Shown: positions 5,795 to 59,785 of the stretch, piece after piece
Layout of the letters: every line of letters starts with the position of its first letter
Numbering within the stretch: the stretch's first letter is position 1
Origin: Tetracentron sinense
Lineage: Eukaryota; Streptophyta; Magnoliopsida; Trochodendrales; Trochodendraceae
Assembly: GCA_015143295.1 (NCBI GenBank)
Contig: CM026556.1
Coordinates: 15,748,547 to 15,812,546, forward strand
Length of the DNA stretch: 64,000 nt
Direction: 5' to 3'
The notes under the pieces: generated by a model
What the model saw: only the letters and a program-made list of their open reading frames with translations
Database searches by the model: none
What the model was told of the DNA's origin: nothing
Translations under genes and position numbers: made by a program

Positions 5795-5931
5795 TGTAGA
5801 GCCCCTGACCTTTTCACAGTTAATGCATGACACTTTCATTGTCATTTTGCCTTTAAAGAGGTATAATTGATAAATAAGGAAGAAATTAGAAATTTTGAAA
5901 TGTCAGAAATGTTCCTTTTCGAAGTACGAGC

Positions 5932-5983
5932 CCAACGCAAGTTGAATCGTCAAAATCGGACGAACGAGTCAAAAGATATGGCC
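5932..5983 (+). promoter_or_regulatory. Conserved U3-like box of about 52 bp, copy 1
   Basis: The box starts CCAACGCAAGTTGAATCGTC and ends AAAAGATATGGCC. Eight further copies occur in LTRs A2 (two), A3, A4, C (two), E and F, always about 130-150 bp inside the LTR start and just before the repeat array. Its position upstream of the leader suggests a control element; no factor is known. Confidence 0.6.
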
Positions 5984-6087
5984 AAAATAGTCTGAACTTA
6001 TAAGCAAAACGTAGCTCGGAAGGCACTAAGGACGTGCTCTGACGTCGTACTCTGATAACGTAGCACAGACAACGTACTCTTAACGTA

Positions 6088-6405
6088 TACGTTGTGCATT
6101 CATTGTACAGCTCACAACGGGTACGTTGTACAGCTCACAACGGGTACGTTGTACAGCACAACGGGCACGTTGTACATAAGACAACGGACTACGAGCTCAG
6201 CACTATGCACGACACAACGTGACAACGGGTTCGGCACCCTTCACAACGGACAACGTGTTTGGTGCTATTCACAGCACAACGAGTTGGCACTATTCACAGC
6301 ACAACGAGTTGGCACTATTCACAGCACAACGAGTTGGCACTATACACAGCACAACGTGTTCAGCACTATTCACAACACAACGTGTTCAGCATTCGTGTTT
6401 TTACA
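6088..6405 (+). repeat. ACGT-rich tandem repeats in the A1 3' LTR
   Basis: First come irregular units around ACGTTGTACA/CACAACGGGTACG, then about six 26-bp units of the type CACAGCACAACGAGTTGGCA (6-bp remainder ACTATT). The same array has 17 units in A4 and 18 and 11 in the two LTRs of A2. Confidence 0.85.
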
Positions 6406-7741
6406 GAAATTCTAGTAAGGGTATTATGGTCTTTTGGTCGGTTCACTCTTACCTTAAGAGTTTAACCCGAGCCTTTAGGGCATCAATTCGACACTTAGAG
6501 AGTTTGAGAGAATAGGAGAAAGGGGAGAAGGCGATTCCAACCTAGGGTTTCCATTTGGGAGAGAAATCAAAGGGGTTTTGAAACCCTAGATCACTTCCAG
6601 TCCGGTTTTCTTCAAGATCTCGGCTCAAGCTCGTGCGAAGCTCGTGTTCCAAGGTAGGGCAGCAACTCACAGTCGTTTGGAAGAGGGATTTCTTCCTCAT
6701 GTCTTCAAGGTCGGTACTTCTTACTACCCTCCTAGTTGTAGTTCCTTCTTCCCCTTTATTTTCTTTTGATTTTCTTTCATTTACACATGTGCTTTGAGAT
6801 GGATAGTTGTGAATGGTGAATGGAGATGGAATGGGCGATTGGATGCCAATGGTGGTGTGTGATAAACAAATGGGGAAGGGCATTGTTCCAATAATGAACA
6901 TACATGTATGATTTGAGTAAAACCCATCTAGAAAAGCATGTTGTAGGGTAAATCCATAATGAACACACCATGTTTGATGAAATGCCAAAGTGAATAAAGT
7001 GAGCTGTAAATTAGTAAATGCATGCCTAATAAATTCTGAATATTGCTAGGGCCTATGATAGTGTGTTTCCTGTTTTCCCTAAATGATATGAATATTTCAT
7101 TGCTCAATCATTGATGTTATACGTGTTGTGAAATTACCCAAATGTCATATTTAAATTTAAATGCAAGTATGTCCACGGTTCCCCCGAGCACTGCATGCAT
7201 GATGTGATTTATCGAGGTTTTCAAGGACGTGGTTAGAGGTGGGACATATCCTACGATATGTTTTACCTCGCTTTTCACAAGAAAAAAAGAACCAACATTC
7301 CACGAGGGGTCTCCCCTCACTCACAAGTGCATATCATGAAGAAGGGCCTCCCTTCCCTCGCAAGTACATACATATCATGAAGAAGGGTCTCCCTTCCCTC
7401 TCAAGGCATCTCACAAGCGCATCTCACAAGTACATCTCACAAGGATATCTCACAAGTTACATGATCACAAGCAAGCACGCATGACATGCATGACATGACA
7501 CGACATACAAGAATCAAGCAAGATAGACAAGACGAGTTTTCAAGCACGAAAAGGGTACTTTAAGTCAAATCAAGCGCACGGTGTTTTCAAGGGTTTTTCG
7601 GCTTTTATGAATGCAAGCATGATTATAAATTGCTTTACTTCCTTGTATGATATGAATTGTTTCCGTCTAACATATATGTATTGCTCCTGATTTATGTATT
7701 GCCATTTTTATACTATAATTGTTGGTTAGTATTTAGTACCC

Positions 7742-7762
7742 GCTGAGTATTCCATGCTCAGC
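7742..7762 (+). promoter_or_regulatory. Conserved GCTGAGTA/TGCTCAGC stem-loop
   Basis: An 8-bp stem with one T-G wobble closes the loop TTCCA. In family C the wobble is replaced by a T-A pair. It lies 10 bases before the micro-ORF start in every family A, C, E and F LTR, suggesting a structured RNA element. Confidence 0.6.
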
Positions 7763-7772
7763 CGTACTTCTT

Positions 7773-7892
7773 ATGTCGGCAGGTTCTGAGGGAGCTGCTG
7801 CTCCATTTGATGTTTGTGCTCCTGGTCCATGGGTGGAAGAGGAGTACGTCGAGGAGCCTTTGGAGGAACCTCCCGTAGAGGGTTATCAGTAG
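7773..7892 (+). CDS. LTR micro-ORF, acidic 39-residue frame (family A, intact)
   Basis: ATG TCG GCA GGT opens a frame of 39 residues ending VEGYQ. The middle carries the core PWVEEEYVEE. The same core, start and register recur in the LTRs of families C, E and F, and without the ATG in D, with changes mostly at third codon positions. No known domain, signal peptide or membrane segment is seen; it is rich in Glu and Pro. It may be an upstream ORF of the genomic RNA or the second exon of a spliced leader product, because CGGCAG|GT overlaps its start like a splice acceptor. Function unknown. Confidence 0.5.
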   Translation: MSAGSEGAAAPFDVCAPGPWVEEEYVEEPLEEPPVEGYQ

Positions 7893-8191
7893 GTGGTATT
7901 AGATTCTGTGTGGATTAGCTGTGGGTGAGATGAGAGATATACATCCGTGTATTTTGGCGGGTCTGTCCGCACTTTCTTTTGGTTACTTTTTGTATAAACT
8001 TGGATTCGTATATTCATAGAGGTTTGTTTAGACTTCTGCTGTGCTATGTTAGAGTATATTTCCGCTGTTTATATCCCCTATTGTATATGCTCTGTGGGTT
8101 TTTGCAGGTTGGTTTGTCAAGCAAGTCATGTGAGACATGATTAGTCGTCCAAAGTTCACTCTAACTCCTAGGGTGGGTTTGGGTCGCGACA

Positions 8192-24553: not shown

Positions 24554-24673
24554 CTAATGGTAACCCTCTACTGGAGGTTCCTCCAAAGGTTCCTCGACGT
24601 ACTCCTCCTCCACCCATGGACCAGGAGCACAAACATCAAATGGAGCAGCAGCTCCCTCAGAACCTGCCGACAT
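24554..24673 (-). CDS. LTR micro-ORF, 39 residues (A3 copy)
   Basis: An intact copy of the family A acidic frame: MSAGSEGAAAPF..., PWVEEEYVEE core, ending VEGYH. On the minus strand it starts at 24673, just after the stem-loop. Confidence 0.5.
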   Translation of the reverse strand: MSAGSEGAAAPFDVCAPGPWVEEEYVEEPLEEPPVEGYH

Positions 24674-26409: not shown

Positions 26410-26529
26410 CTAATGGTAACCCTCTACTGGAGGTTCCTCCAAAGGCACCTCGACGTACTCCTCCTCCACCCATGGACCAGGAGCACAAACATCAAATGGA
26501 GCAGTAGCTCCCTCAGAACCTGCCGACAT
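26410..26529 (-). CDS. LTR micro-ORF (A2 3' LTR copy)
   Basis: 39 residues, MSAGSEGATAPF..., PWVEEEYVE core, ending VEGYH. Two replacements relative to A3 (Ala to Thr, and Glu to Val after the core). Open from start to stop. Confidence 0.5.
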   Translation of the reverse strand: MSAGSEGATAPFDVCAPGPWVEEEYVEVPLEEPPVEGYH

Positions 26530-27941
26530 AAGAAGTACGGCTGAGCATGGAATACTCAGCGGGTACTAAGCACTAACCAACAGTCATAGCATACGGATAA
26601 CATACATAAAGCAGGAAACAATTCATATCATACAAGGGAGTAAAGCAATTTATAATCTTGCTTGTATTTCGTAGAAAGCCGATAAAACTTATTGAAAACA
26701 TTGTACACTTGACTTGGCTTGAAATATCTTTTCGTACTTGAAAGCTTGTCTTGTCTATCTTGCTTGATTCTTGTATGTCGTGTCGTACGTGTCATGTCAT
26801 GCGTGCTTGCTTGTGATCATGTAACTTGTGAGATACACTTGTAAGATGTACTTGTGAGATGCGCTTGTGAGATGCCTTGAGAGGGAAGGGAGACCCTTCT
26901 TTATGCAATGCACTTGCGAGGGAAGGGAGACCCTTCTTCATGATATGTATGTACTTGCGAGGGAAGGGAGGCCCTTCTTCATGATATGCACTTGTGAGTG
27001 AGGGGAGACCCCTCGTGGAATGTTGGTTCTTGTTCTCTTGTGAAAAGCGAGGTAAAACATATCGTAGGATATGTCCCACCTCTAACCATGTTCTTGAAAA
27101 CCACGATAAATCATGTCATGCATGCCGTGCTCGTGGAAACCATGTACATACTTGCATTTAAATTTAAACATGACATTTGGGTAATTTGACAACACATATA
27201 ACATCAACGATTGAGCAATGTAATATTCATATCATTTAGGGAAAGCAAGAAAACACACTATCATAGGCCCTAGCAATATTCAGAATTTATTAGGCATACA
27301 TTTCCTAATTTACAACTCGTTTTATTCACCTTGGCATTTCATCAAACATGGTGTGTTCATTATTCATTATTCCTTTAAACCTAAATCATGTTTTTCTAGG
27401 TGAGTTTACTCACATCACACTTGTATGTTCATTATTAGTACAATGCCCTTTCCCATTCATTCATCACATCATCCACACGGCATCCATTCGCCAACATCCA
27501 CCTCCATTCACCATTCATAACCATCCATCTCATAGCACATGTGTAAATGAAAGAAAATCAAAAGAAATAAAGGCGAAAGAGGAACTATAACTAGGAGGGT
27601 AGTAAAAAGTACCGACCTTGATCAAGTGAGGAAGAAATCCCCTTTCCAAAATGACTGTGTAGCTGCTGCCCTAGCTTGGGGAACGCTCTCCACGAGTGCT
27701 TGAGCCGAGATCTTGGAGAAGAGCCGAGCTTGAAGTGATCTAGGGTCTCAAACCCCTTTGATTCTTCTCCAAAATGGAAACCCTAGATTTAGGAATCGCC
27801 CTCTCCTCTCTTCTTATCTCCCAATCCCTCTAAGTGTTGAGAATGAGCCCTAAAGGCTCGGGTTAGACTCTTAAGGTAAGAGTGAACCGACCAATTGACC
27901 ATAATACCCTTACAGAACTTTCTGCCAAAAACACTAGTGCC

Positions 27942-28392
27942 GAACACGTTAGGCTGTGAATAGTGCCAAACACGTTGTGCTGTGAACAGTGCTGAACACG
28001 TTGTGCCTTGAACAGTGCTGAACACGTTGTGCTGTGAACAGTGCCGAACTCGTTGTGTTGTGAACAGTGCTGAACACGTTGTGCTGTGAACAGTGCTGAA
28101 CTCGTTGTGATGTGAACAGTGCTGAACACGTTGTGCTGTGAACAGTGCCGAACTCGTTGTGCGGTGAACAGTGCTGAACACGTTGTGCCTTGAACAGTGC
28201 TGAACACGTTGTGCTGTGAACAGTGCCGAACTCGTTGTGCTGTGAACAGTGCTGAACACGTTGTGCTGTGAACAGTGCCGAACTCGTTGTGCGGTGAACA
28301 GTGCTGAACACGTTGTGCTGTGAACAGTGCTAAACACGTTGTGCTGTGAACAGTGTTGAACACGTTGTACTGTGAACAGTGCCGAACACGTT
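27942..28392 (-). repeat. 26-bp tandem array, about 18 units (A2 3' LTR)
   Basis: Units of CAGCACAACGTGTTCAGCAC plus TGTTCA (minus strand), a few with CGAGTTCGG instead. Because 26 is not a multiple of three and no stop word occurs, all three frames of this strand stay open and spell a 26-residue periodic peptide. It is not a gene. Confidence 0.93.
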
Positions 28393-28544
28393 GTCCGTTG
28401 TCTTATGTACAACGTGCCCGCTGTCTGCTGTACGACGCACCCGTTGTTGCTGTACAACGTACCCGTTGTCCGTTGCACAACGGATGCACAACGTATACGT
28501 TGTTTGTGCGTTGTTTGTGCCTTATCAGAGCACGTTGTCAGAGC

Positions 28545-28967: not shown

Positions 28968-31900
28968 TCATTCAATTAATTCTGGGTACTTTGCTTTGAC
29001 TTCGGCTTCACACTCCCATGTAGCTTCTTCCCGAGCATGGTGTTGCCATTGCACAAGAACCAAAGGGATTGTCTTGTTGCGAAGCACCTGATCTGTTCGA
29101 TCCAAAATCTGAACCGGCTTTTCAATCAAGGTGTGGTCCTCTCGAATCTCCAACGGTTCCAAGTCTATGACATGCGAAGGATCCGCAATGTACTTCCGAA
29201 GCATAGACACATGGGAGACGTTGTGAACCGCGGCCAAGTGAGGTGGGAGAGCTACCCTGTAAGCAACCTCACCAACTCGAGTGATAATCTCAAAAGGCCC
29301 AACATACCGAGGACTCAGTTTGCCTCGCTTGCCAAATCTCATGATCCCTTTGCTAGGAGATACTTTCACAAAAACTTGATCCCCTACTTGAAATTCCAAG
29401 TCCCTACGGCGCGTGTCCGCATAACTTTTCTGGCGATCTTGAGCGGCTTTCAATCGATCCCGAATGATCTTAACTGTGTTTACAGTTTGCTCAATCAACT
29501 TCGGACCAAGTACTTTCCTTTCTCCTGCCTCATCCCAATAGAGAGGAGACCTACAACTTTGCCCATACAAGGCCTCAAATGGTGCCATTTGGATACTTGC
29601 CTGATAGCTGTTATTATAGGCGAATTCAACCAAAGGCAAGTGCTCTTCCCAACTGCCTCTGAAATCCAACATACAAGCCCGAAGCATGTCTTCAATGACT
29701 TGGTTCACTCTCTCGGTTTGTCCATCCGTCTGTGGATGAAAAGCAGTGCTGAAATCAAGTCGGGAACCCATAGCTTCCTGAAAGCTTTTCCAAAATCGTG
29801 ATGTGAATCTTGGATCCCGATCCGACACAATACTGACAGGCACTCCGTGCAACCTCACCACTTCCTTGATGTACAAAGCAGCTAACTAACTAGAGTTGAA
29901 AGTAGTTCGGTAAGGCAAGAAGTGAGCGGACTTCGTCAAACGATCCACTACTACCCATATCGCATCTGAACCCCTTGCCATCTTTGGCAAGCCAACTATG
30001 AAATCCATGGATATGTTCTCCCATTTCCACTTGGGAATCGGAAGGGACTGTAATAGACCTGCGGGCCGTATGTGTTCTGCTTTCACCTGTTGGAACACCA
30101 AGCACCGTGCTACATATTCCGTAACCTCCCTCTTCATATTCCGCCACCAAAAGTGACTCTTGAGGTTCCGGTACATCTTCGTACCCCCTGGATGCACAGT
30201 GTACTTTGCCCGGTGGGCTTCATCCATAATCTCCCTCCGAAGATTTGCATTGGCTGGAACACACAACCTTCCCTTGAATGTGATAGCACCTCGGCTAGTG
30301 AGAGAGAAGTCCTCACTACCCTTAGCAACTTCCTTGTCCTTATAAGCCAACAATTCAGCATCCGTGGCTTGGTATTCTTGGATCAAATCTATAATGTATA
30401 GCCGAACCGTGACATTTGCCAAGATAGGACTACGAACAGAGTCATTCACACTAATGTCCAGATTTGCCAAGTCTTCAAGTAGCTTCCATTCCTGCACTAA
30501 CATGCATGCTAATAACCCCGGAGGTCTTCTACTCAAAGCGTCAGCCACTACATTTGCTTTACCCGGGTGGTATTGAATGGTACAGTCATAGTCTTTCAAA
30601 AATTCCATCCAACGCCGTTGCCTTAGGTTCAGCTCCTTTTGGGAAAAGAGATACTTGAGACTCTTGTGATTGATAAACACATAGAACTCCACCCCATAAA
30701 GTTAATGACGCCAAATCTTAAGTGCAAACACGACCGCCGCAAGCTCCAAGTCGTGCTTGGGATAATTCTTCTCATGCTCCTTCAACTGCCTTAATGCATA
30801 GGCAATGACTTTCTTGTGCTGCATGAGTACGCACCCAAGTCCAACGTGCGAGGCATCACTATACACCTCATACCCATAAGGTCCGGATGGCACAGTAAGG
30901 ACAGGGGCTGTAGTAAGCCTCTTCTTCAGTTCCGTGAAACTGATCTCGCACTTATCACTCCATACAAACTTGGCGTTCTTCCTTGTCAGGTAAGTTAGCG
31001 GTGCTGCAAGGCTAGAGAAACCCTCTACGAATCTCCTGTAGTAGCCTGCCAACCCAAGAAAGCTGCGTATCTCGGTAACACTCTTGGGCCTCGCCCAACT
31101 CATAATTGCTTCGATCTTCTTTGGATCTACCGAGATACCTTCTACAGAAACAACGTGGCCTAGGAATGCCACCTCTTCCAACCAAAACTCACACTTGCTA
31201 AGTTTGGCGTATAGCTTGTGCTCTCTTAGCATTTCCAAAGCAAGGCATAGGTCGCGTGTGTGATCTTCCCGTGTCTGGGAATAGACCAAAATATCATCAA
31301 CAAATACAATCACGCACCTATCAAGATATGGCCGGAACACCCGGTTCATCAAATCCATAAAGGCTGCCGGCGCGTTCGTGAGTCCAAAAGGCATCACCAA
31401 GAACTCGTAGTGTCCATACCGAGTCCTGAAAGCAGTTTTGGGAACATCTTCCGCCTTAATCTTCAACTGGTGATAGCCCGATCGAAGGTCTATCTTCGAG
31501 GAAAATCTCGCTCCCTTCAACTGATCGAACAAGTCATCAATCCTAGGCAAGGGATACCTATTCTTTATAGTGACTTTGTTCAATTGCCTGTAATCGACGC
31601 ACATCCGCATCGAGCCATCTTTCTTCTTAACAAACAACACCGGGGCACCCCACGGTGAGACACTTGGTCGAATGAAACCAAGGCCTTGCAATTCCTCCAA
31701 TTGAGTCTTCAACTCCTTGAGTTCAATAGGGGCCATTCTATATGGAGCTCTGAAAACAGGAGCTGTGCCTGGTGCAAGCTCGATCACAAACTCAATCTCC
31801 CTATTTGGAGGCAATCCCGACAACTCCTCTGGAAATACATCCAGGAATTCACTCACAACCGGAATAGTCGATGAGTCCTTTGCTTCAGGGTTAGCTAAAG

Positions 31901-34242: not shown

Positions 34243-34362
34243 CTAATGGTAACCCTCTACTGGAGGTTCCTTCAAAGGCTCCTCGACATACTCCTCCTCC
34301 ACCCATGGACCAGGAGCACAAACATCAAATGGAGCAGCAGCTCCCTCAGAACCTGCCGACAT
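34243..34362 (-). CDS. LTR micro-ORF (A2 5' LTR copy)
   Basis: 39 residues with PWVEEEYVEE and the VEGYH end, open throughout. Confidence 0.5.
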   Translation of the reverse strand: MSAGSEGAAAPFDVCAPGPWVEEEYVEEPLKEPPVEGYH

Positions 34363-35781
34363 AAGAAGTACGGCTGAGCATGGAATACTCAGCGGGTACT
34401 GAGCACTAACCAACAGTCATAGCATACGGATAACATACATAAAGCAGGAAACAATTCATATCATACAAGGGAGTAAAGCAATTTATAATCATGCTTGTAT
34501 TTCGTAGAAAGCCGATAAAACTTATTGAAAACATTGTGCACTTGACTTGGCTTGAAATATCTTTTCGTACTTGAAAGCTTGTCTTGTCTATCTTGCTTGG
34601 TTCTTGTATGTCGTGTCGTACGTGTCATGTCATGCATGTCATGCATGCTTGCTTGTGATCATGTAACTTGTGAGATAACTTGTAAGATGTACTTGTGAGA
34701 TGCGCTTGTGAGATGCCTTGAGAGGGAAGGGAGACCCTTCTTTATGCAATGCACTTGCGAGGGAAGGGAGACCCTTCTTCATGATATGTATGTACTTGCG
34801 AGAGAAGGGAGGCCCTTCTTCATGATATGCACTTGTGAGTGAGGGGAGACCCCTCGTGGAATGTTGGTTCTTGTTCTCTTGTGAAAAGCGAGGTAAAACA
34901 TATCGTAGGATATATCCCACCTCTAACCATGTTCTTGAAAACCTCGATAAATCATGTCATGCATGCCGTGCTCGTGGAAACCGTGTACATACTTGCATTT
35001 AAATTTAAACATGACATTTAGGTAATTTCACAACACAGATAACATCAACGATTGAGCAATGTAATATTCATATCATTTAGGGAAAGCAAGAAAACACACT
35101 ATCATAGGCCTTAGCAATATTCAGAATTTATTAGCCATACATTTCCTAATTTTCAACTCGTTTTATTCACCTTGGCATTTCATCAAACATGGTGTGTTCA
35201 TTATTCATTATTCCTTTAAACCTAAATCATGTTTTTCTAGGTGAGTTTACTCACATCACACTTGTATGTTCATTATTAGTACAATGCCCTTTCCCATTCA
35301 TTCATCACATCATCCACATGGCATCCATTCGCCAACATCCACCTCCATTCACCATTCATAACCATCCATCTCATAGCACATGTGTAAATGAAAGAAAATC
35401 AAAAGAAATAAAGGCGAAAGAGGAACTATAACTAGGAGGGTAGTAAAAAGTACCGACCTTGATCAAGTGAGGAAGAAATCCCCTTTCCAAAATGACTGTG
35501 TAGCTGCTGCCATAGCTTGGGGAACGCTCTCCACGAGTGCTTGAGCCGAGATCTTGGAGAAGAGCCGAGCTTGAAGTGATCTAGGGTCTCAAACCCCTTT
35601 GATTCTTCTCCAAAATGGAAACCCTAGATTTAGGAATCGCCCTCTCCTCTCTTCTTATCTCTCAATCTCTCTAAGTGTTGAGAATGAGCCCTAAAGGCTC
35701 GGGTTAGACTCTTAAGGTAAGAGTGAACCGACCAATTGACCATAATACCCTTACAGAACTTTCTGCCAAAAACACTAGTGC

Positions 35782-36050
35782 CAAACACGTTAGGCTGTGA
35801 ATAGTGCCAAACACGTTGTGCTGTGAACAGTGCTGAACACGTTGTGCCTTGAACAGTGCTGAACACGTTGTGCTGTGAACAGTGCCGAATTCGTTGTGTT
35901 GTGAACAGTGCTGAACACGTTGTGCTGTGAACAGTGCCGAACTTGTTGTGCGGTGAACAGTGCTGAACACGTTGTGCTGTGAACAGTGCTAAACACGTTG
36001 TGCTGTGAACAGTGCTGAACACGTTGTGCTGTGAACAGTGCTGAACACGT
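35782..36050 (-). repeat. 26-bp tandem array, about 11 units (A2 5' LTR)
   Basis: Same unit as 27942-28392 with seven fewer copies (7 x 26 = 182 bp, near the 174-bp LTR length difference). Confidence 0.92.
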
Positions 36051-36734
36051 TGTCCATTGTCTTATGTACAACGTGCCCGTTGTCTGCTGTACGACGCACC
36101 CGTTTCTGTACAACGTACCCGTTGTCCGTTGCACAACGGATGCACAACGTATAAGTTGTCTGTGCGTTGTCTGTGCCTTATCAGAGCACGTTGTCAGAGC
36201 ATGTTATCCGAGCTATGTCCTTAGTGCCTTCCGAGCTACGTCCTTAGTGCCCTCCGAGCTACGTCCTTAGCGCCTTCCGAGCTACGTCCTTAGCGCCTTC
36301 CGAGCTACGATTTCCTACAGGTCCAAACTGTTTTGGCCATATCTTTTGAATCGTTCGTCTGATTTTGACGATTCAACTTGCGTTGGGTTCGTACTTCGAA
36401 AAGAAACATTTTTGACGTTTCAGAATTTCTAATTTCTTCCTTATTTATTAATTATACCTCTTTAAAGGCAAAATGGCAATGAAAGTGTCATGCACTAAAT
36501 GTGAAAAGGTCCGGGGCTCTACACACGAGTGCCGAACACGTTGTGCTGTGAACAATGCCGAACACGTTGTGCTGTGAATAGTGCTAATCACGTTGTGCTG
36601 AGCTCGTTGTCCGTTGTCTTATGTACAATGTGCCCATTGTACTGTACAACGTACCCATTGTCTGTTGCACAACGGATGCACAATGTATACATTGTCTATG
36701 CGTTGTCTGTGCCTTATGAGAGCACGTTGTCAGA

Positions 36735-38804: not shown

Positions 38805-39738
38805 GCTGGGTTCGTGCCTTAGGGTTTCATAAACCCTATGTGCACTATTTTGAGAGAGATTTGAGAGGAGAAGAAGGAGAGAAGCTAGGTGTTGCTCAAA
38901 CTTGAACGGAGATCTAGATCCTTCCTTCCTTTGATGTTTCTCAACAAATAACTCGAGGTTTTCACGTGTTCCAAGCTTTTGGAATCAAAGTCACCGATTT
39001 CATCAAGGTAGATACACTCTACTACCAATCTTGTGATACTACTAGTTACCATATGTTATGCTTCTCATTCTATACTACAAGCCTTGCTTTGTTATGGTGT
39101 GGGATGTTATTTGTATACTTGGATGCAAGCTACCACTATTATGCACTCTACGTGTTTGTGTAAATGCCTCTAAGGGTTTTTTTGGGTGTTAAAACATGTT
39201 ATCATTCTCATATGCTCATATGTTCGCATGTCTCGCATGAACCGAGGTTTTTCCATGGATTTCTCAAAGTTACGAAAATGATTTTGAATGAATGACTTAT
39301 ATGAATGATTCTAAGCAACTCTATGATATCTCTAAGATCGGTTTACAAGCTCAAAAGGATCATAATACACTCACAAGAACTCTATAATAATGTCAAAGAT
39401 TCTCTCACAAGCTCTAAGGATCACAAATACAAATTCTCTAAGATCTCTATGGTATTAGCTCTAAGGTTATGCTCTATGGTATCGCTCTATATCTCTACGG
39501 ATCATAAATGACTCTAAAGAACTCTATAAACTCCAAGAACTCACAAGGCTATGATTATCGCATGACTCATACGGTTTTGGTTTCGGATTTCATCATATGT
39601 GCTATTTCACAGTTTCTACACTTCAATATGTTTTACAGATTTCATTCTCCATGATTCGCATGCTCTATGCTATTATTGCTTTATTGTTAGTAGTATGTAT
39701 ACACTAAGTATTCCATGCTCAGCCAATATTTGTTATCA

Positions 39739-39879
39739 TCGGCAGGTGCTCTGGTTCCATTCCACTTATGTGGTACGGAGCCTTGGGTAGAGGAAGAGTA
39801 CTTCGACCCGGAGCCTTCTATGGATCACTACCAGGATGACGACTCATTAGATAGCCGTCATGACTTTGACTTTTGTTGA
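39739..39879 (+). CDS. LTR acidic frame (family D), without the ATG
   Basis: In the register of the other micro-ORFs it reads SAGALVPF..., PWVEEEYFDPE, and ends DFDFC and TGA, paralleling the DYC stop of C and F. The upstream ATG TCG is TCA TCG here, so it may depend on the CGGCAG|GT acceptor, or be decayed. Extent is set by homology. Confidence 0.4.
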   Translation, partial: SAGALVPFHLCGTEPWVEEEYFDPEPSMDHYQDDDSLDSRHDFDFC

Positions 39880-40212: not shown

Positions 40213-40593
40213 TCTAGGGATTAGTTTTCCTTGGGCTAAGCAGAAGTCAGTTCTTTGAGTTGAACTTAGAACTCAGATGGACTTGTTTTTGTAAGGCTTG
40301 TTACCACGATATAACTAGTGTCAAGCAAATCCTCAGGTCGGTCTAGGATCTTAGTCTAGGTGCAAGTCTAGACCATGTCCTTAGTTTTATTCCAAAGGAA
40401 AAGGTAGATACCCAACACAAGGATCTTAGCTATGTTAGGAAACTCTAAGTTATAATTATATGATTATGTGTATACTTCGATGTCTACTACATGCGGTAAT
40501 AGCATTTCATCTTTATTAGATTGCTATATGTTGTGTGAGGATCGGTATCCAAGTTAGACTTATGTTTTTCCATTAATCCCAGGATTTTACATC

Positions 40594-43386: not shown

Positions 43387-43829
43387 TGTAGAGCCCCAGA
43401 CCTTTTCACATTTTATGCATGACACTTTCGTTGCCTTTTTGCCTTTAAAGTGGTATAATTAATAAATAAAGAAGAAAATGGAAATTCTGAAATGACAGAA
43501 ATGTTCCTTTTCGAAGTACGAACCCAACGCAAGTTGAATCGTCAAAATCGGAAGAACGAGTCAAAAGATATGGCCAAAATAGTCTGGACCTGCAGGAAAT
43601 CGTAGCTCGGTTATGCACTAAGGACGTAGCTCTGACAGCGTGCTCTGATAAGGCACAGACAACGCATAGACAACGTATACGTTGTGCATCCGTTGTGCAA
43701 CAGACAACAGGTACGTTGTACAGCAACAACGGGTACGTTGTACAGCAACAACGGGTACGTTGTACAGCAACAACGTGTACGTTGTGCAGCTCACAACGGC
43801 ACGTTGTGCATAAGACAACGGACAACGAG

Positions 43830-44265
43830 CACAACGTGTTCGGCACTGTTCACAGCACAACGTGTTCGGCACTGTTCATAGCACAACGTGTTCAGCACTG
43901 TTCACAGCACAACGTGTTCGGCACTGTTCACAGCACAACGTGTTCGGCACTGTTCACAGCACAACGTGTTCGGCATTGTTCACAGCACAACGTGTTTAGC
44001 ACTGTTCACAGCACAACGTGTTCGGCACTGTTCACAGCACAACGTGTTCGGCACTGTTCACAGCACAACGTGTTCGGCACTGTTCACAGCACAACGTGTT
44101 CGGCACTGTTCACAGCACAACGTGTTCGGCACTGTTCACAGCACAACGTGTTCAGCGCTGTTCACAGCACAACGTGTTCAGCACTGTTCACAGCACAACT
44201 TGTTCAGCACTGTTCACAGCACAACGTGTTCGGCACTGTTCACAGCCCAACGTGTTCGGCACTCG
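43830..44265 (+). repeat. 26-bp tandem array, 17 units (A4)
   Basis: Unit ACAACGTGTTCGGCACTGTT plus CACAGC. All three plus frames are open across it. Confidence 0.94.
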
Positions 44266-45702
44266 TGTTTTTGCAGAGAGCTCAGTAAGGGTGTTATGGT
44301 CTTTTGGTCGGTTCACTCTTACCTTAAGAGTTTAACCCGAGCCTTTAGGGCATCATTCGACACTTAGAGAGTTTGAGAGAATAGGAGAAAGGGGAGAAGG
44401 CGATTCCAACCTAGGGTTTCCATTTTGGAGAGAAATCAAAGGGTTTTGAGACCCTAGATCACTTCAAGCTCGGCTCTTCTCCAAGATCTCGGCTCAAGCA
44501 CTCGTGGAGAGCGTTCTCCAAGCTAGGGCAGCAACTCACAGTTGTTTTGGAAAGGGGATTTCTTCCTCACTTGATCAAGGTCGGTACTTCTTACTACCCT
44601 CCTAGTTATAGTTCCTCTTTTCCCCTCTATTTCTTTTGATTTTCCTTTATTTACACTTGTGCTATGAGATGGATGGTTATGAATGGTGAATGGTGAATGG
44701 TGAATGGTGAATGGAGATGGAATGGGCGATTGGATGCCAGTGGTTGTGTTGTGATGATTAAAATGGGGAGGGCATTGTTCCAATAATGAACATACAGGCA
44801 TGATCTGAGTAAAAACCCATCTAGAAAAGCATGTTGTAGGGTAAATGAATAATGAACACACCATGTTTGATGAAATGCCAAGGTGAAGAAAGTGAGTTGT
44901 AAATTAGGAAATGCATGCCTAATAAATTATGGATATTGCTAGGGCCTATGATAGTGTGTTTTTCTTGCTTTCCCTAAATGATGTGAATGTTACATTGCTC
45001 AATCATTGATGTTATATGTGTTGTGAAATTACCCAAATGTCATATTTAAATTTAAATGCAAGTATGTTCACGGTTCCCACGAGCACGGCATGCATGACAT
45101 GAATTATCGAGGTTTTCAAGAACATGGTTAGAGGTGGGACATATCCTACGATATGTTTTACCTCGCTTTTCACAAGAAGACAAGAACCAACATTCCACGA
45201 GGGGTCTCCCCTCACTCACAAGTGCATATCATGAAGAAGGGCCTCCCTTCCCTCGCAAGTACATGCATATCATGAAGAAGGGTCTCCCTTCCCTCTCAAG
45301 TGCATTGCATAAAGAAGGGTCTCCCTTCCCTCTCAAGGCATCTCACAAGCGCATCTCACAAGGGTATCTCACAAGTTACATGATCACAAGCAAGCACGCA
45401 TGACATGCATGACATGACATGACATGACATGACATACAAGAATCAAGCAAGATTGACAAGACGAGTTTTCAAGCATGAAAAGGGTACTTTAAGTCAAGTC
45501 AAGCGCACGGTGTTTTCAAGGGTTTATCAGCTTTCATGAATGCAACATGATGAATTATATTGCTTTACTTCCCTGTATGATATGAATTGTATCCGTCTAA
45601 CATATATGAATTGTTTCCTGCTTTATGTATGCTATCCATATGCTATGACTGTTGGTTAGTGCTTAGTACCCGTTGAGTATTCCATGCTCAGCCGTACTTC
45701 TT

Positions 45703-45822
45703 ATGTCGGCAGGTTCTGAGGGAGCTGCTGCTCCATTTGATGTTTGTGCTCCTGGTCCATGGGTGGAGGAGGAGTACGTCGAGGAGCCTTTGGAGGAACC
45801 TCCTGTAGGGGGTTACCATTAG
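45703..45822 (+). CDS. LTR micro-ORF (A4 copy)
   Basis: 39 residues, MSAGSEGAAAPF..., PWVEEEYVEE, ending VGGYH, open throughout. Eleven bases follow the stem-loop. Confidence 0.5.
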   Translation: MSAGSEGAAAPFDVCAPGPWVEEEYVEEPLEEPPVGGYH

Positions 45823-46122
45823 GTGGTTGTAGATTCTGAGTGGATTAGCTGTGGGTGAGATGAGAGATTTTATCCATGTATTTTGGCGGGTCTGTCTGCA
45901 CTTTCTTTTGGATTCCTTTTGTGAAAAACTTGGATTCGTATATACATAAAGGTTTGTTTAGACTTCTGCTGTGCTATGTTAGAGTATGTTTCCGCTGTTT
46001 ATATCCTCTATTGTATATGCTCTGTGGGTTTTTGCAGGTTGGTTTGTCAAGCAAGTCATGTAAGCCATGATTAGTCGTCCAAAGTTCACTCTAACTCCTA
46101 GGGTGGGTTTTGGGTCGCGACA

Positions 46123-48092: not shown

Positions 48093-50019
48093 TGTAGAAC
48101 CCCAAATCTTCGTTTCACTAAGTAGTGAATAGTGTGTGAATAGTGCTCAAGTGTGGTGTTATACACTAATGGGCCTTATGCTAATATACGTGTTTGGATT
48201 TATGGCATGCATATTTCATAGGTCTACATATCCTTAAGAAATGAGTTTAAAGCATAAAAGGTGTTGGAAATGGGATTGGAGAAGATCCAAGTATTGAAAA
48301 TAGGGTTTTGGAGCAAAACAAGGGATCACTGATCGCTCGGTGCTAACCACCGATCGACCGGTCTTATACCGATTGCTCGGTGATAACCTTCGATCGACCG
48401 GTCGGTAGCTATTGATTGGTTAACTAATTTGTATGGGAAAAAATTTCAGAGAAGGTGTTTTCAACCGATTGCTCAGTTGAAACCACCGATCACTCGATCT
48501 GTACCACTGATCGATCGGTTGTATGCAGATTTTCATCATTAAAGGGTTTTGAGTCTTTAGCCACTACCCCTTTGCCTATATAAGGCTGGGTTCATGCCTT
48601 AGGGTTTCATAAACCCTTTGTGCACTATTTTGAGAGAGATTTGAGAGGAGAAGAAGGAGAGAAGCTAGGTGTTGCTCAAACTTGAAGGGAGATGAAGATC
48701 CTTCCTTCCTTTGGTGTTTCTCAACAAAGAACTCGAGATTTTCACGTCTTCCAAGCTTCTGGAATCAAAGTCACCGATTTCATCAAGGTAGATACACTCT
48801 ACTACCAATCTTGTGATACTACTAATTACCATATGTTATTCTTCTCATTCTATACTACAAGCCTTGCTTTGTTATGGTGTGGGATGTTATTTGTATACTA
48901 GGATGTAAGCTACCACTATTATGCACTCCTCTAAGGGTTTTTTTGGGTGTTAAAGCATGTTATCATTCTCATATGCTCATATGTTCACATGTCTCGCATG
49001 AACCGAGGTTTTTCCATGGATTTCTCAAAGTTACGAAAAGGATTTTGAACGAATGACTTATATGAATGATTCTAAGCAACTCTATGATATCTCTATGATC
49101 GGTTCACAAGCTCAAAAGGATCATGATACACTCACAAGGACTCTATGATAATGTCAAAGATCCTCTCACAAGCTCAAAAGGATCATGATACACTCACAAG
49201 GACTCTATGATAATGTCAAAGATCCTCTCACAAGCTCTAAGGATCACAAATACAAATGCTCTAAGATCTCTATGGTATTGGCTCTAAGGTTATGCTCTAT
49301 GGTATCGCTCTATGCCTCTACGGATCATAAATGAATCTAAGGAACTCTATGAACTCTAAAAACTCACAAGGCTATGATTATCGCATGACTCACACGGTTT
49401 TGGTTTCGGATTTCATCATATGTGCTATTTCATGATTTCTACACTTCGATATGTTTTACGGATTTCATTCTCCATGATTCGCATGCTCCATGCTATTATT
49501 GCTTTATTGTTAGTAGTATGTATACGCTGAGTATTCCACGCTCAGCCGATATTTGTTATCATCAGCAGGTGCTCGGGTTTCATTCGACTTATGTGGTACG
49601 GAGCCTTGGGTAGAGGAAGAGTACTTCGACCTGGAGCCTTCTATGGATCACTATTAGGACGACGACTCATTAGATAGGCGTCATGACTTTGACTTTTTTT
49701 GATCGACTTAGAAAGAATATGATATTTTGTTAAGTGACAGTGGGACTTGTCCACTCCACCCTTTTTGATAGTTACATACGTGTATCTTTTGTTGGTTCAT
49801 ACTTGGACCGAGTAATAGGAGTGTTTAGTTATACATTTGGCTTCCACTATGTTAGTTATTTCTTTTGCTTCCACTATACATTGTAAATCGTTTCCGCTAT
49901 GCATGTCTGTGTATTTTGCCAGGTTTCTATGCGTGCTTTATGTATCATATGGGAGGTATGATACGGCGGTCACGAGTCAAAGTATCCCTAACTCTTAGGG
50001 GGTATTTTGGGTCACGACA
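48093..50019 (+). repeat. D 3' LTR (family D)
   Basis: 1927 bp, collinear with the 5' LTR apart from small changes: a duplicated CTCACAAGCTCAAAAGGATC segment near 49160 and a shorter segment near 48920. Palindromes are at 48325-48535 and TATATAAG at 48577. The acidic frame 49562-49702 has TAG at 49655 where the 5' LTR has CAG. Stem-loop GCTGAG/CTCAGC near 49530 is intact. Confidence 0.92.
49562..49702 (+). pseudogene. LTR acidic frame (D 3' LTR), broken
   Basis: Reads SAGARVSF..., PWVEEEYFD, then TAG at 49655-49657, then DDDSLDRRHDFDFF and TGA. Compare 39739-39879. Confidence 0.4.
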
Positions 50020-55656: not shown

Positions 55657-56154
55657 AAAATACTGAAGTACGTTCTGCAGCACCAGTCAAGACCGAGAGA
55701 TCGGTCCACTACCGGTAGATCGGTCATAAGCACCGATCGATCGGTCCACTACCAGTAGATCGGTCATCTATTGGTCCTACGCGATTTTCAGAAATATTTT
55801 TAGGGGTTTTTTGGTTTTTTGGTCTTTTGGCCACTCCACCCTTATTTTTAATGGTTGGCTCGAGCCAAGGGTGTTCATGTCACGCCCCAAAATACCCCCT
55901 AGGAGTTAAGGGATACTTTAGAGGTGACTACGTGTACCTGTCAAACCATCCTGTAATGCAAGAGGCTAAACATAAGATAATACAATGATAATCAGAGCGC
56001 GGAAACTAAACATAAGTGCGGAAGCATAAGCCAACTTTTTCTTTTCTATAATTCCAAATAGTATTCCAAGTTAACATATACCAAATACAATCAAAGTAAA
56101 GGTGGACATGCCCACCTATCAAAATACAAAAAGGAACTCTCTAACCCTCTCCTC

Positions 56155-56295
56155 TCAACAGTAGTCGAGGTATGGCCACTTATCCAAATCCCTATCCTCC
56201 TGAGACTGCCATGGGATAGGTGGCTCCCTCTCCTCTACATACTCCTCCTCGACCCAAGGCTCGGGGTTGAGGACATCCACAGTACCTGCCGACAT
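56155..56295 (-). CDS. LTR micro-ORF, 46 residues (family F)
   Basis: MSAGTVDVLNPE, PWVEEEYVEE, tail DKWPYLDYC, TGA. Protein closely matches C although many third codon positions differ. Starts after a GCTGAG/CTCAGC stem-loop. Confidence 0.52.
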   Translation of the reverse strand: MSAGTVDVLNPEPWVEEEYVEEREPPIPWQSQEDRDLDKWPYLDYC

Positions 56296-56569
56296 AAAAG
56301 TACGGCTGAGCATGGAATACTCAGCGAGTACAAACTACTAGCTAACCATAACAATAGCGAAAGCATAACAACAGTGAGCAATACAAGATATTAATTTAAA
56401 GCAATAGTGAAAGCATACGATACATAGCCATATCTTGACATGCGTGCATGAATGCAAAAACCTCGGTAAAACTCATGTCTCGGAAACCTTTTTCGTGTCT
56501 CGGTCAAATCATGTATGTGTGTCGTGTCTTGTCTTGTATTTCATGCTTTGATTTGTTCTTGACTTGTAT

Positions 56570-56765
56570 GCTTGTGAGCCAGAGGCTAGCACCCTTCCTT
56601 AGGCTACCAACCTCCTTGTCATGTTCTTGTTCAATTTCTCTTGTGAGCCAGAGGCTAGCACCCTTCCTTGGGCTACCAACCTCCTTGTCATGTTCTTGTT
56701 CCATTTCTCTTGTGAGCCAGAGGCTAGTACCCTTCCTTGGGCTACCAACCTCCTTGTCATGTTCT
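56570..56765 (-). repeat. About 62-bp tandem units in LTR F
   Basis: Three units containing CTTGTGAGCCAGAGGCTAG (reverse of CTAGCCTCTGGCTCACAAG) and GGCTACCAACCTCCTTG. Equivalent to the E array in the other orientation. Confidence 0.85.
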
Positions 56766-57734
56766 TGATTCATCATATACATATACAATCTTGGAAAACC
56801 CGGTTTCATGCATGCATGCGTGGTGTGTATAGCACTTGTAATATCATGATGACAATATGACATGAAGAGTAGTGTATAGCAATTCAATCCACAGTATAAC
56901 CATATTGGAATTTGAGTAGTCTACGTGGCATTTGAATAGTTCATCATTCATAAGAACACATGCATAAGGCCTACTTTCATTTTCTTCATTTATGTCATTT
57001 ATTCCTAGTTTAGGCATTTTCTCAAACACATAACATGCAAGGTTCCTTAATGGTTCATCTTCTTCTTTTTAGTGCCTACTTTCCATCCAAAAATTAAGGT
57101 ATGTTCATTATTGGTAAAATGCCCATCCTCCATTTTCCATTCTTCACACCACACATTCATACACCATACATTTGGCATCCCATCGCCTCAATCAACCTCT
57201 CATCCATGCATCCACACCATTTTCCTCACCTTGTTTATATTTAGTGAATATGATACATTTCATAAGGGAGAAATACATAGTAGCAAAATCATATAGTTCA
57301 TAGAAAAACTAGGTTATTGTTAGGGGAAGTTAGTAGGGTGTACTAACCTTGAATCGAAGCTTGATCTTGGTGTAGACCTTGATTTAAACTCCAACTTGGA
57401 AGAAGAAAGCCCTTACTCAAACTATACTTGATTGGGTAGGAAACCCTCTTGAAAATACCGTAGAGAGTGCTGCCCTAGCTTGAGAAGGGAACCCCACACG
57501 AGCTTGAGTTGAAATCTTGAAGAAAACGTGCTTGGGGACGATCTAGGGTCTTCACCCCTTTGATTTCTTCTCCAAAAGCAACCTAGGTTTAGGAAACCCT
57601 TTTCTCTTCTCTCTTATCTCCCAACTCTCTCTAAGTATCGTGAATGATGCCCTAAGGCTCGGGCAAGCCTTAAGGAGAAAGGGTTTAGCCCCCAAAAGAC
57701 GAAAAAGCCCTTACTGAAATTTCTGCAAAAACGC

Positions 57735-57915
57735 GAAGACCGAGCGATCGGTGGTTATGACCGATCGATCGGTTGCCTACCGATCGATCGGTGTTTATGA
57801 CCGATCGACCGGTCAAAAACTCACTCTCTGGAAAATTTCCCCATACAAAATTTCTGACCGTGCGATAGCTACCGATCGATCGATCGCTGACTGGACCGAG
57901 CGATCGGTGCTCTGT
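57735..57915 (-). repeat. CGATCG palindrome cluster (F)
   Basis: ACCGATCGATCGGT-like words, at least seven, several perfect, between the leader and the 52-bp box. Confidence 0.85.
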
Positions 57916-58929
57916 ATGTCTGGACTGTTTTGACCATATCTTTTGACTCGCTCGTCGGATTTCGACGATTCAACTTGCGTTGGGTTCGTCTTTCGAAAAC
58001 GCACATTTCTGACCTTTCAGAAGTTCCAATTTCTCCCTTATTTATTAATTAGACTACGAAAACGGCCAATTAGCTACGTAAGTGCCATTCATTAAAAATG
58101 AAAAAGTCCGGGGTGCTACAGTTCATAAACACCCTTAGCCATATTTTGAGAGGGAGTGAGAGAGGAGAGAAGGGGTTTTCACCCTAGGGCATCAACTTGA
58201 GAAAATCAAGGGGTTTTGGAACCCATGACCATCTCAAAAGCTTGGATCTCTCAAATCCAACCTCATGCACGTGTGGAGTCCCATTCCAAGCTAGGGCAGC
58301 GTTTTTCAAGGGTTTTCTTCTCTTCTTCAAGTTAGTACACCCTACTAACTTACCCTAGCAATAAATCTAAGTTTTCTTTATGAAATGTGATTTAAGCTAT
58401 TATGTTTGCTTTCTTGTGAAATGTATCATCCCTAATAAATATAAACAAGATAAAGAAATGGTGTGGATGTTGGATGTGGCGATTGGATGCTGAATGGGTG
58501 ATGTATGGTATGTGTGGGTTGTGGATTGGAAAATGGAGGATGGGCATTACACAAATAATAAACTTACCTTGTGTGATTGAATGTAAAATATGCACTAAAA
58601 AGGAGAAAATGAACAATGAGGAAACTTGCATGCTAAGTGTTTGACAAAATACCTAAACTATGAAATAATGACTTGAATGAAGATAATGGAAATAGGCCTC
58701 ATGCATGTACTCTTATGAATGATGAATTGATCAAGTAATGTGATCAAGTAATGTGAAAATTTCTTAAGTGCTCCTATGCTTATATGATGAATCGAATTAT
58801 GATGTCATATCTCTCTTGCTATCCTCATTCCACGATGGTCACTATTGACACATACACGAGCATGCATGTTAGCATGAACTGCGATTTCAATTGCATATGC
58901 ATATAATAACAACAAGAAAATATTGAATA

Positions 58930-59608: not shown

Positions 59609-59785
59609 ATGTCGGCAGGTACTGAGGGAGCCCTCGACCCGGAGCCTTGGGTCGAGGAAGAGTATATCGAGGAGAGAGAGCCATCTATCCCACTGCAGTC
59701 TCAGGCGGACCGAGACCTTGACGTGTGGCCATACCTCAAACTACTGTTGAGGGGAGAGTATGAGAGGGTCTTTTATGTATTTTGA
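59609..59785 (+). CDS. LTR micro-ORF, extended copy (family E)
   Basis: MSAGTEGALDPE, PWVEEEYIEE, tail DLDVWPYL, then a one-base insertion replaces the usual DYC-stop by LKLLLRGEYERVFYVF before TGA (58 residues). Confidence 0.48.
   Translation: MSAGTEGALDPEPWVEEEYIEEREPSIPLQSQADRDLDVWPYLKLLLRGEYERVFYVF

Follow-up and report, generated by a model that had tools for sequence, protein, structure and literature searches.

A short reading frame inside the LTRs of Tetracentron sinense retrotransposons, here called the micro-ORF, is a real protein-coding frame on which purifying selection acted when the elements were still replicating. It was studied in a window of 64,000 nt (contig CM026556.1, positions 15,748,547-15,812,546, forward strand), where it occurs twelve times. 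The evidence consists of constraint on its amino acids, indels that keep the frame, an in-frame ATG upstream in each family and decay confined to single copies. Constraint at the amino-acid level implies that an acidic peptide of 39-54 aa was maintained by purifying selection during element replication. LTRs of plant retrotransposons account for a large fraction of plant genomes, and annotation normally treats them as having no coding function. If they contain a selected micro-ORF, a peptide could be encoded by a very large number of LTR copies, among them solo LTRs, and there would be a handle on how ATG-rich element leaders permit gag production.

All twelve frames were found at the positions and on the strands given by an earlier sequence-only reading of the window; we designate them by family letter and number. 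Family A, with LTRs of 2.4-2.7 kb, contributes six. A1 (262-381, +) belongs to the 5' LTR of element A, which starts outside the window, and A2 (7773-7892, +), an intact frame of 39 aa, to the 3' LTR of the same element (5795-8191, +; 2397 nt, TGTAGAG...GCGACA), which is preceded by the polypurine tract GGGGGGGAAGA. Its start at 5795 agrees with BLAST end points, flanks and target-site duplications (TSDs), and the two LTRs are 98% identical. A3 (24554-24673, -) lies in a solo LTR (TSD ATCTC) interrupted by another element, whose 3' and 5' LTRs carry A4 (26410-26529, -) and A5 (34243-34362, -; TSD TCGTG); A5 is followed by a primer-binding site (PBS) and gag. A6 (45703-45822, +) lies in a solo LTR (43387-46122, TSD GCTTC). 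C1 (21314-21454, +; 46 aa) and C2 (53381-53521, +) belong to the 5' and 3' LTRs of element C (TSD CTCCA). Element D, whose flanks GGTCA and GGGCA form no exact TSD, contains D1 (39715-39879, +; 54 aa, core 39739-39879) and, in its 3' LTR, D2 (49562-49702, +). E1 (56155-56295, -; 46 aa) is located in a solo LTR (55878-58120, TSD GTTCA taken from the flanks) and F1 (59609-59785, +) in an LTR that is partial as far as seen. The copies appear to go back to eight insertions, distributed over A, C/E/F and D as the deep lineages. Five diverged families had been proposed, of which C, E and F form one group, so that the number of deep lineages is three.

Judged by the domains they encode, the micro-ORF-bearing elements are chromodomain Ty3 elements. 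Pfam matches in element A comprise Retrotrans_gag, RVP_2, RVT_1, RT_RNaseH and Integrase_H2C2, followed by a Chromo match (E 7e-07). The order gag, protease, RT, RNase H, integrase and C-terminal chromodomain is that of Ty3 chromoviruses; the reading frames are broken in places. From the look of the chromodomain, we take these elements to be Tekay/Del-like. LTRs start with TGTAG and end with CGACA or a variant, and polypurine tracts precede the 3' LTRs containing A2, A4, C2 and D2. In A, C and D the 5' LTR is followed by a primer site of the TGGTATCAGAGC type, with TGGTATCAGAGC itself after A1, A5 and D1 and TGGTATCAAAAC after C1; presumably these sequences correspond to initiator tRNA-Met.

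Nine of the twelve micro-ORFs contain no internal stop or frameshift, and the three broken ones (A1, D2, F1) are damaged in different ways. In A1 the tryptophan codon TGG is changed to TAG, D2 has an in-frame TAG (CAG to TAG), and in F1 a private 1-nt insertion close to the 3' end lengthens the frame. The heptapeptide PWVEEEY, reported to be kept in all families, is present in 11 of 12 copies, A1 retaining all of it except the W codon, and is identical in the nine copies aligned from A, C/E/F and D. An MSAG-type start had likewise been described for most A, C, E and F copies; exact ATGTCGGCAGGT was found in nine of twelve. C2 has ATGTCAGGAGGT, and this ATG is absent from D1 and D2. Every family has one or more in-frame ATGs just upstream with no intervening stop, D2 being a copy without any in-frame ATG. 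The D(Y/F)(D)(Y/F)C-stop ending attributed to C, F and D holds for C1, C2 and D1, extends to E1 (PYLDYC or DFDFC) and fails for F1, where it is frameshifted. The family A frame stops earlier and does not have it. Alignment shows that indels between families keep the frame. The four peptides computed have a pI of 4.05, with 10-13 D/E and 4-6 P residues.

Differences between families fall mostly at third codon positions, as the sequence-only reading had pointed out. Over 43 codons of C1, C2, E1 and F1, the variable columns number 8, 10 and 22 at positions 1, 2 and 3, respectively, and 22 at the third position are reached in 63 of 100,000 column shuffles. A ten-codon core compared in A2, C1, D1, E1 and F1 gives 2, 1 and 8. 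Pairs within C/E/F (all except C1-C2) differ by 12-15% at positions 1 and 2 and by 26-42% at third positions; their LTR flanks differ by 21-30% downstream and 30-35% upstream. Since third positions diverge about as much as the flanks, they behave much like flanking DNA, and divergence at positions 1 and 2 amounts to roughly one third to one half of this. Recent exchange of the segment between families as DNA, named beforehand as an observation that would tell against selection, is excluded by the same divergence of third positions.

Maximum likelihood codon models gave omega of 0.147 for C1, C2, E1 and F1 (lnL -353.8 versus -370.4 at omega = 1; 2dlnL 33.2) and 0.138 for ten of the twelve copies, A1 and D2 being excluded and F1 trimmed to 43 codons (lnL -687.8 versus -720.8; 2dlnL 66.0). 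A separate model of all twelve copies gave 0.163 (lnL -740.5 versus -773.9; 2dlnL 66.8). The earlier proposal of protein-level selection, either on a product or on an upstream ORF, is thus supported: within the window omega is 0.14-0.15 rather than near 1, and omega = 1 is rejected. Further, pN/pS was scanned along the C/E/F LTR alignment in 2036 scored segments of 40 codons on both strands. The 15 lowest values (0.15-0.20) all lie in the micro-ORF frame, five of these segments extending beyond its own stop. Among the 1516 segments elsewhere, the minimum is 0.36 (in a segment with 7 stops) and the median 0.80; off-frame segments at the micro-ORF position exceed 1.3. As a control, gag gave 0.22, 0.27 and 0.43 for A1 versus A5, C1 and D1, respectively. 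By pN/pS, with other pairs compared, constraint on the micro-ORF is at least as strong as on gag.

The signal is clearest in the core and weaker, yet present, toward the stop: codons 25-48 of C/E/F, with the stop and one codon beyond included, have 6, 8 and 13 variable columns (23 codons counted). Codons 1-8, with 0, 4 and 3 variable columns, do not show a coding pattern. The codons TCG GCA GGT are altered in C2 and D2 alone, and the 50 nt preceding the frame differ by 4-16% among C1, C2, E1 and F1. With these codons near-invariant and the 50 nt ahead of the frame conserved at the DNA level, an extra constraint overlaps the start of the ORF.

Constraint was also compared before and after insertion. 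A branch model assigned omega of 0.113 to change before insertion (other branches, including solo-LTR tips) versus 0.389 to the tips of LTR pairs (2dlnL 5.7), and fixing the latter at 1 costs 2dlnL of 4.4. As the tip value is also below 1, change after insertion is relaxed, not cleanly neutral. With nonsense changes excluded, the synonymous and nonsynonymous changes are 0 and 0 in A1/A2, 1 and 3 in A4/A5, 6 and 4 in C1/C2, and 3 and 6 in D1/D2. C1/C2 probably contributes most to the low tip value; its synonymous excess, in counts uncorrected for methylation-driven transitions, speaks against simple neutrality.

Surrounding LTR DNA, which had been called hardly alignable, is alignable in part. 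LTRs of C, E and F align at 72-76% across 640-960 nt. A block of some 80 nt, taking in the start and a hairpin upstream of it, matches between A2 and C1, E1 and F1 at 83-85% and between A2 and C2 at 76%; between A2 and D this block was found only inside a longer match of 68-69%. The hairpin, GCTGAGTAT-TCC-ATGCTCAGC at 7742-7762 (+), 10 nt upstream of the A2 micro-ORF, occurs in all five families. Its arms pair in every family, though D1 has two pairs broken and D2 a single one. No two-sided compensatory change was detected in the nine of twelve copies folded, so the hairpin is to be regarded as a conserved sequence able to pair, not as a proven RNA structure. The block is among the best conserved LTR DNA between families, family A LTRs being compared over their 3' three quarters. 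An ATG in the hairpin loop is in frame with the micro-ORF in D1, where it is the sole in-frame ATG (39715), and in E1 and F1; it is out of frame in A.

The order in DNA is micro-ORF, PBS and gag in A, C and D, and the micro-ORF ends about 270-320 nt short of the LTR 3' end. It sits in the 3' part of the LTR, probably in R/U5. TATAAAT is found 125-149 nt upstream of it in four of five family A LTRs examined and is missing from A6; by eye, C1 and C2 have an upstream TATA-like site too, and no TATA-like site shared by D, E or F was seen. A second TATA-like stretch in family A lies downstream of the micro-ORF and would place the latter in U3. In element A, the leader runs from the 5' LTR end at 680 to the presumed gag ATG at 1018 (681-1017, +), with PBS TGGTATCAGAGC at its start. 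Unspliced leaders contain 11 (A1), 15 (A5), 18 (C1) and 18 (D1) further ATGs between micro-ORF and gag, which means that gag synthesis needs some control or bypass.

Such a bypass might be splicing. An acceptor-like TTGTTCTCAG/G lies 10 nt before the gag ATG in A1 (1008-1017, +), 9 nt before it in C1 (22040-22048) and 11 nt in D1 (40583-40593), and CAG/G at a distance of 9-11 nt is also present in A5 (33605, -). A U5 stretch following an acceptor-like TTTTTGCAG/GTTGG (597-680, +) is repeated across the five families, with C1 (21655) and D1 (40100) as examples. The leader sites are consensus matches only, scored with hand-entered donor and acceptor matrices. Given these acceptor-like sites, gag may be translated from a spliced leader without the primer-binding site: joining a U5 donor to the gag acceptor would cut out the primer site together with most ATGs, the micro-ORF staying ahead of gag. 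BARE offers a parallel, with distinct RNA pools for translation and for the genome (PMC3735527), and separate pools or spliced gag RNA are described for the plant LTR elements BARE and EVADE (PMC3735527, PMC12786077); those, however, are Copia elements.

Our preferred reading, held tentatively and built on sequence comparisons, is that the micro-ORF acts as a peptide-dependent upstream ORF of the leader. It would lie in the 5' leader of element RNA as the 5'-proximal upstream ORF, behind the conserved hairpin and in a weak start context, and ribosomes would translate it on part of the RNAs. The nascent acidic, proline-containing chain (PWVEEEYVEE...EPP) would then control the ribosomes' next move, by pausing or by early release and reinitiation, and so set gag output from an RNA that also serves as genome. 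It could act through nascent-chain destabilisation, as D/E-rich N-terminal chains abort translation in eukaryotes (PMC9718836); runs tested there are, as far as shown in the accessible text, denser in D/E than the micro-ORF peptide. The invariant W and Y of the core suggest that more than acidity was selected.

Several findings weigh against a peptide-dependent upstream ORF. Stalling uORF peptides usually conserve their C-terminal end, and family A does without that part. The start context is poor, with C or T at -3, the TATA-like site is missing in A6, D2 has no in-frame ATG, and leader folds disagree between families (z of -4.05 in A5, -2.55 in C1 and +0.10 in D1). Nothing consistent emerged from these folds as a shared leader structure.

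Conserved-peptide uORFs (CPuORFs) have been described for cellular mRNAs. Those of plant mRNAs, named in PMC5902531, are likewise short upstream frames with a conserved amino-acid sequence, and purifying selection on amino acids is found here too (omega 0.14-0.16). Unlike them, the micro-ORF resides in a retrotransposon LTR and has lost its C-terminal end in family A.

Certainty is lowest for whatever follows translation, and a microprotein acting in trans is nearly as likely. The LTR would then be a small gene for a free acidic peptide, with aromatics in the acidic run, whose partner would be a protein of the host or of the element (e.g. histones, Gag, or an RNA-export or translation factor), leader translation being merely its route of production. 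Preservation of specific residues, not only charge, across the deepest split fits such a product, as do the PYLDYC or DFDFC ending with stop in C1, C2, E1 and D1 and a constraint not below that of gag. On the other hand, the peptide is very short, its start context weak and its C-terminal part dispensable in family A; AlphaFold2 predicted two short C-terminal helices only, with no confident fold (mean pLDDT 70, pTM 0.17), and none of the four submitted peptides matched a Pfam family. Somewhat less probable, in our estimate, is the fuller version, an accessory gene wholly inside a plant chromovirus LTR whose acidic microprotein, with its invariant PWVEEEY core, acts in trans on element RNA, Gag or host chromatin. 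If true, this gene would be copied with each insertion, and its copy number would equal that of the LTRs, with solo LTRs counted.

Proteins encoded in LTR sequence are known from MMTV (sag) and, by overlap, HIV (nef); these genes occupy U3 of the 3' LTR, and their length is much greater. The likeness to the far shorter micro-ORF is by description only. Closer to the present elements are the eORFs and aORFs of plant Ty3 elements, additional coding frames upstream of gag in chromodomain elements, among them the Tekay 5'aORF present in 500 of 523 sunflower group-2-like elements (PMC11728184). Such frames were scored at 250 codons or more in one survey (PMC6317226), and reviewed aORFs are described in the internal region (PMC7264820), whereas the micro-ORF, at 39-54 codons, does not extend beyond the LTR.

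It is improbable that the frame is an exon of a larger spliced protein. Conserved CAG/GT at codons 3-4 would serve as 3' splice site and the frame as terminal exon, which might for example be read downstream of pol in the 3' LTR. In all seven copies scored this site ranks within the top six acceptors, if the C2 site, displaced by 3 nt, is counted. Variation at its third positions is confined to C2 and D2, and D keeps CAG/GT despite lacking the MSAG ATG. However, no good upstream donor was found: with the one at -48 (A) or -51 (E, F) the intron would measure just 58-61 nt, and in C1, C2 and D1 this donor does not rank with the best. The in-frame upstream ATGs with no stop in between also argue against an exon. 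Fusion of the peptide to gag by splicing is unlikely and was rejected, because the acceptor-to-ATG distances (10, 9 and 11 nt) fall in three different phases and the micro-ORF ends in a stop codon of its own; the peptide therefore does not form the N-terminus of gag.

Still less probable is a leader sORF used solely for ribosome shunting or reinitiation, with peptide sequence irrelevant. We know of no pararetrovirus in which the peptide of the leader sORF matters. Plant pararetroviruses (CaMV, RTBV) resemble our elements as reverse-transcribing elements with a long, ATG-rich leader and a 5'-proximal short ORF, and the mechanism is described for caulimoviruses (PMC5902531). In contrast to these leaders, the micro-ORF shows peptide-level selection (omega 0.14), unexpected if only position and length matter, and no shared large hairpin beginning after its stop, as shunting would use, was found in the three folds (A5, C1, D1).

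Conservation at DNA or RNA level (promoter, packaging or polyadenylation element) mimicking a frame, or recent gene conversion between LTRs, is very improbable: the adjoining hairpin stretch is indeed conserved as nucleotides, but variation within the frame concentrates at third positions, to about the level of the flanks, and only the micro-ORF frame has low pN/pS at this position.

Database searches covered collections other than plant genomes, and absence of relatives there therefore says little. The PWVEEEY DNA pattern had no matches in viral contigs, the hairpin pattern none in prokaryote genome contigs, and an RT query returned no confirmed relative in viral contigs. Keyword searches of titles and abstract starts of open-licence papers revealed no such LTR peptide among the matches listed. 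The nearest was a mass-spectrometry survey of grape, which places 47 non-conventional peptides in LTR-retrotransposon regions (PMC9070638), which indicates that such regions can yield peptides.

Between 19205 and 60058 the insertions are nested, most with readable target-site duplications. Element C is split by the A3 solo LTR and by D; the A3 solo LTR is itself split by the A4/A5 element, and D by the A6 solo LTR. The E1 solo LTR adjoins the F1 LTR. Antisense to the 3' part of pol in the A4/A5 element runs a stop-to-stop frame of 273 codons (28980-29801, +) without Pfam match. The 5' part of family A LTRs contains tandem arrays of a 26-bp unit (27936-28394, 35777-36053 and 43828-44263), and the copy number differs between the two LTRs of one element (17.7 in that of A4 and 10.7 in that of A5).
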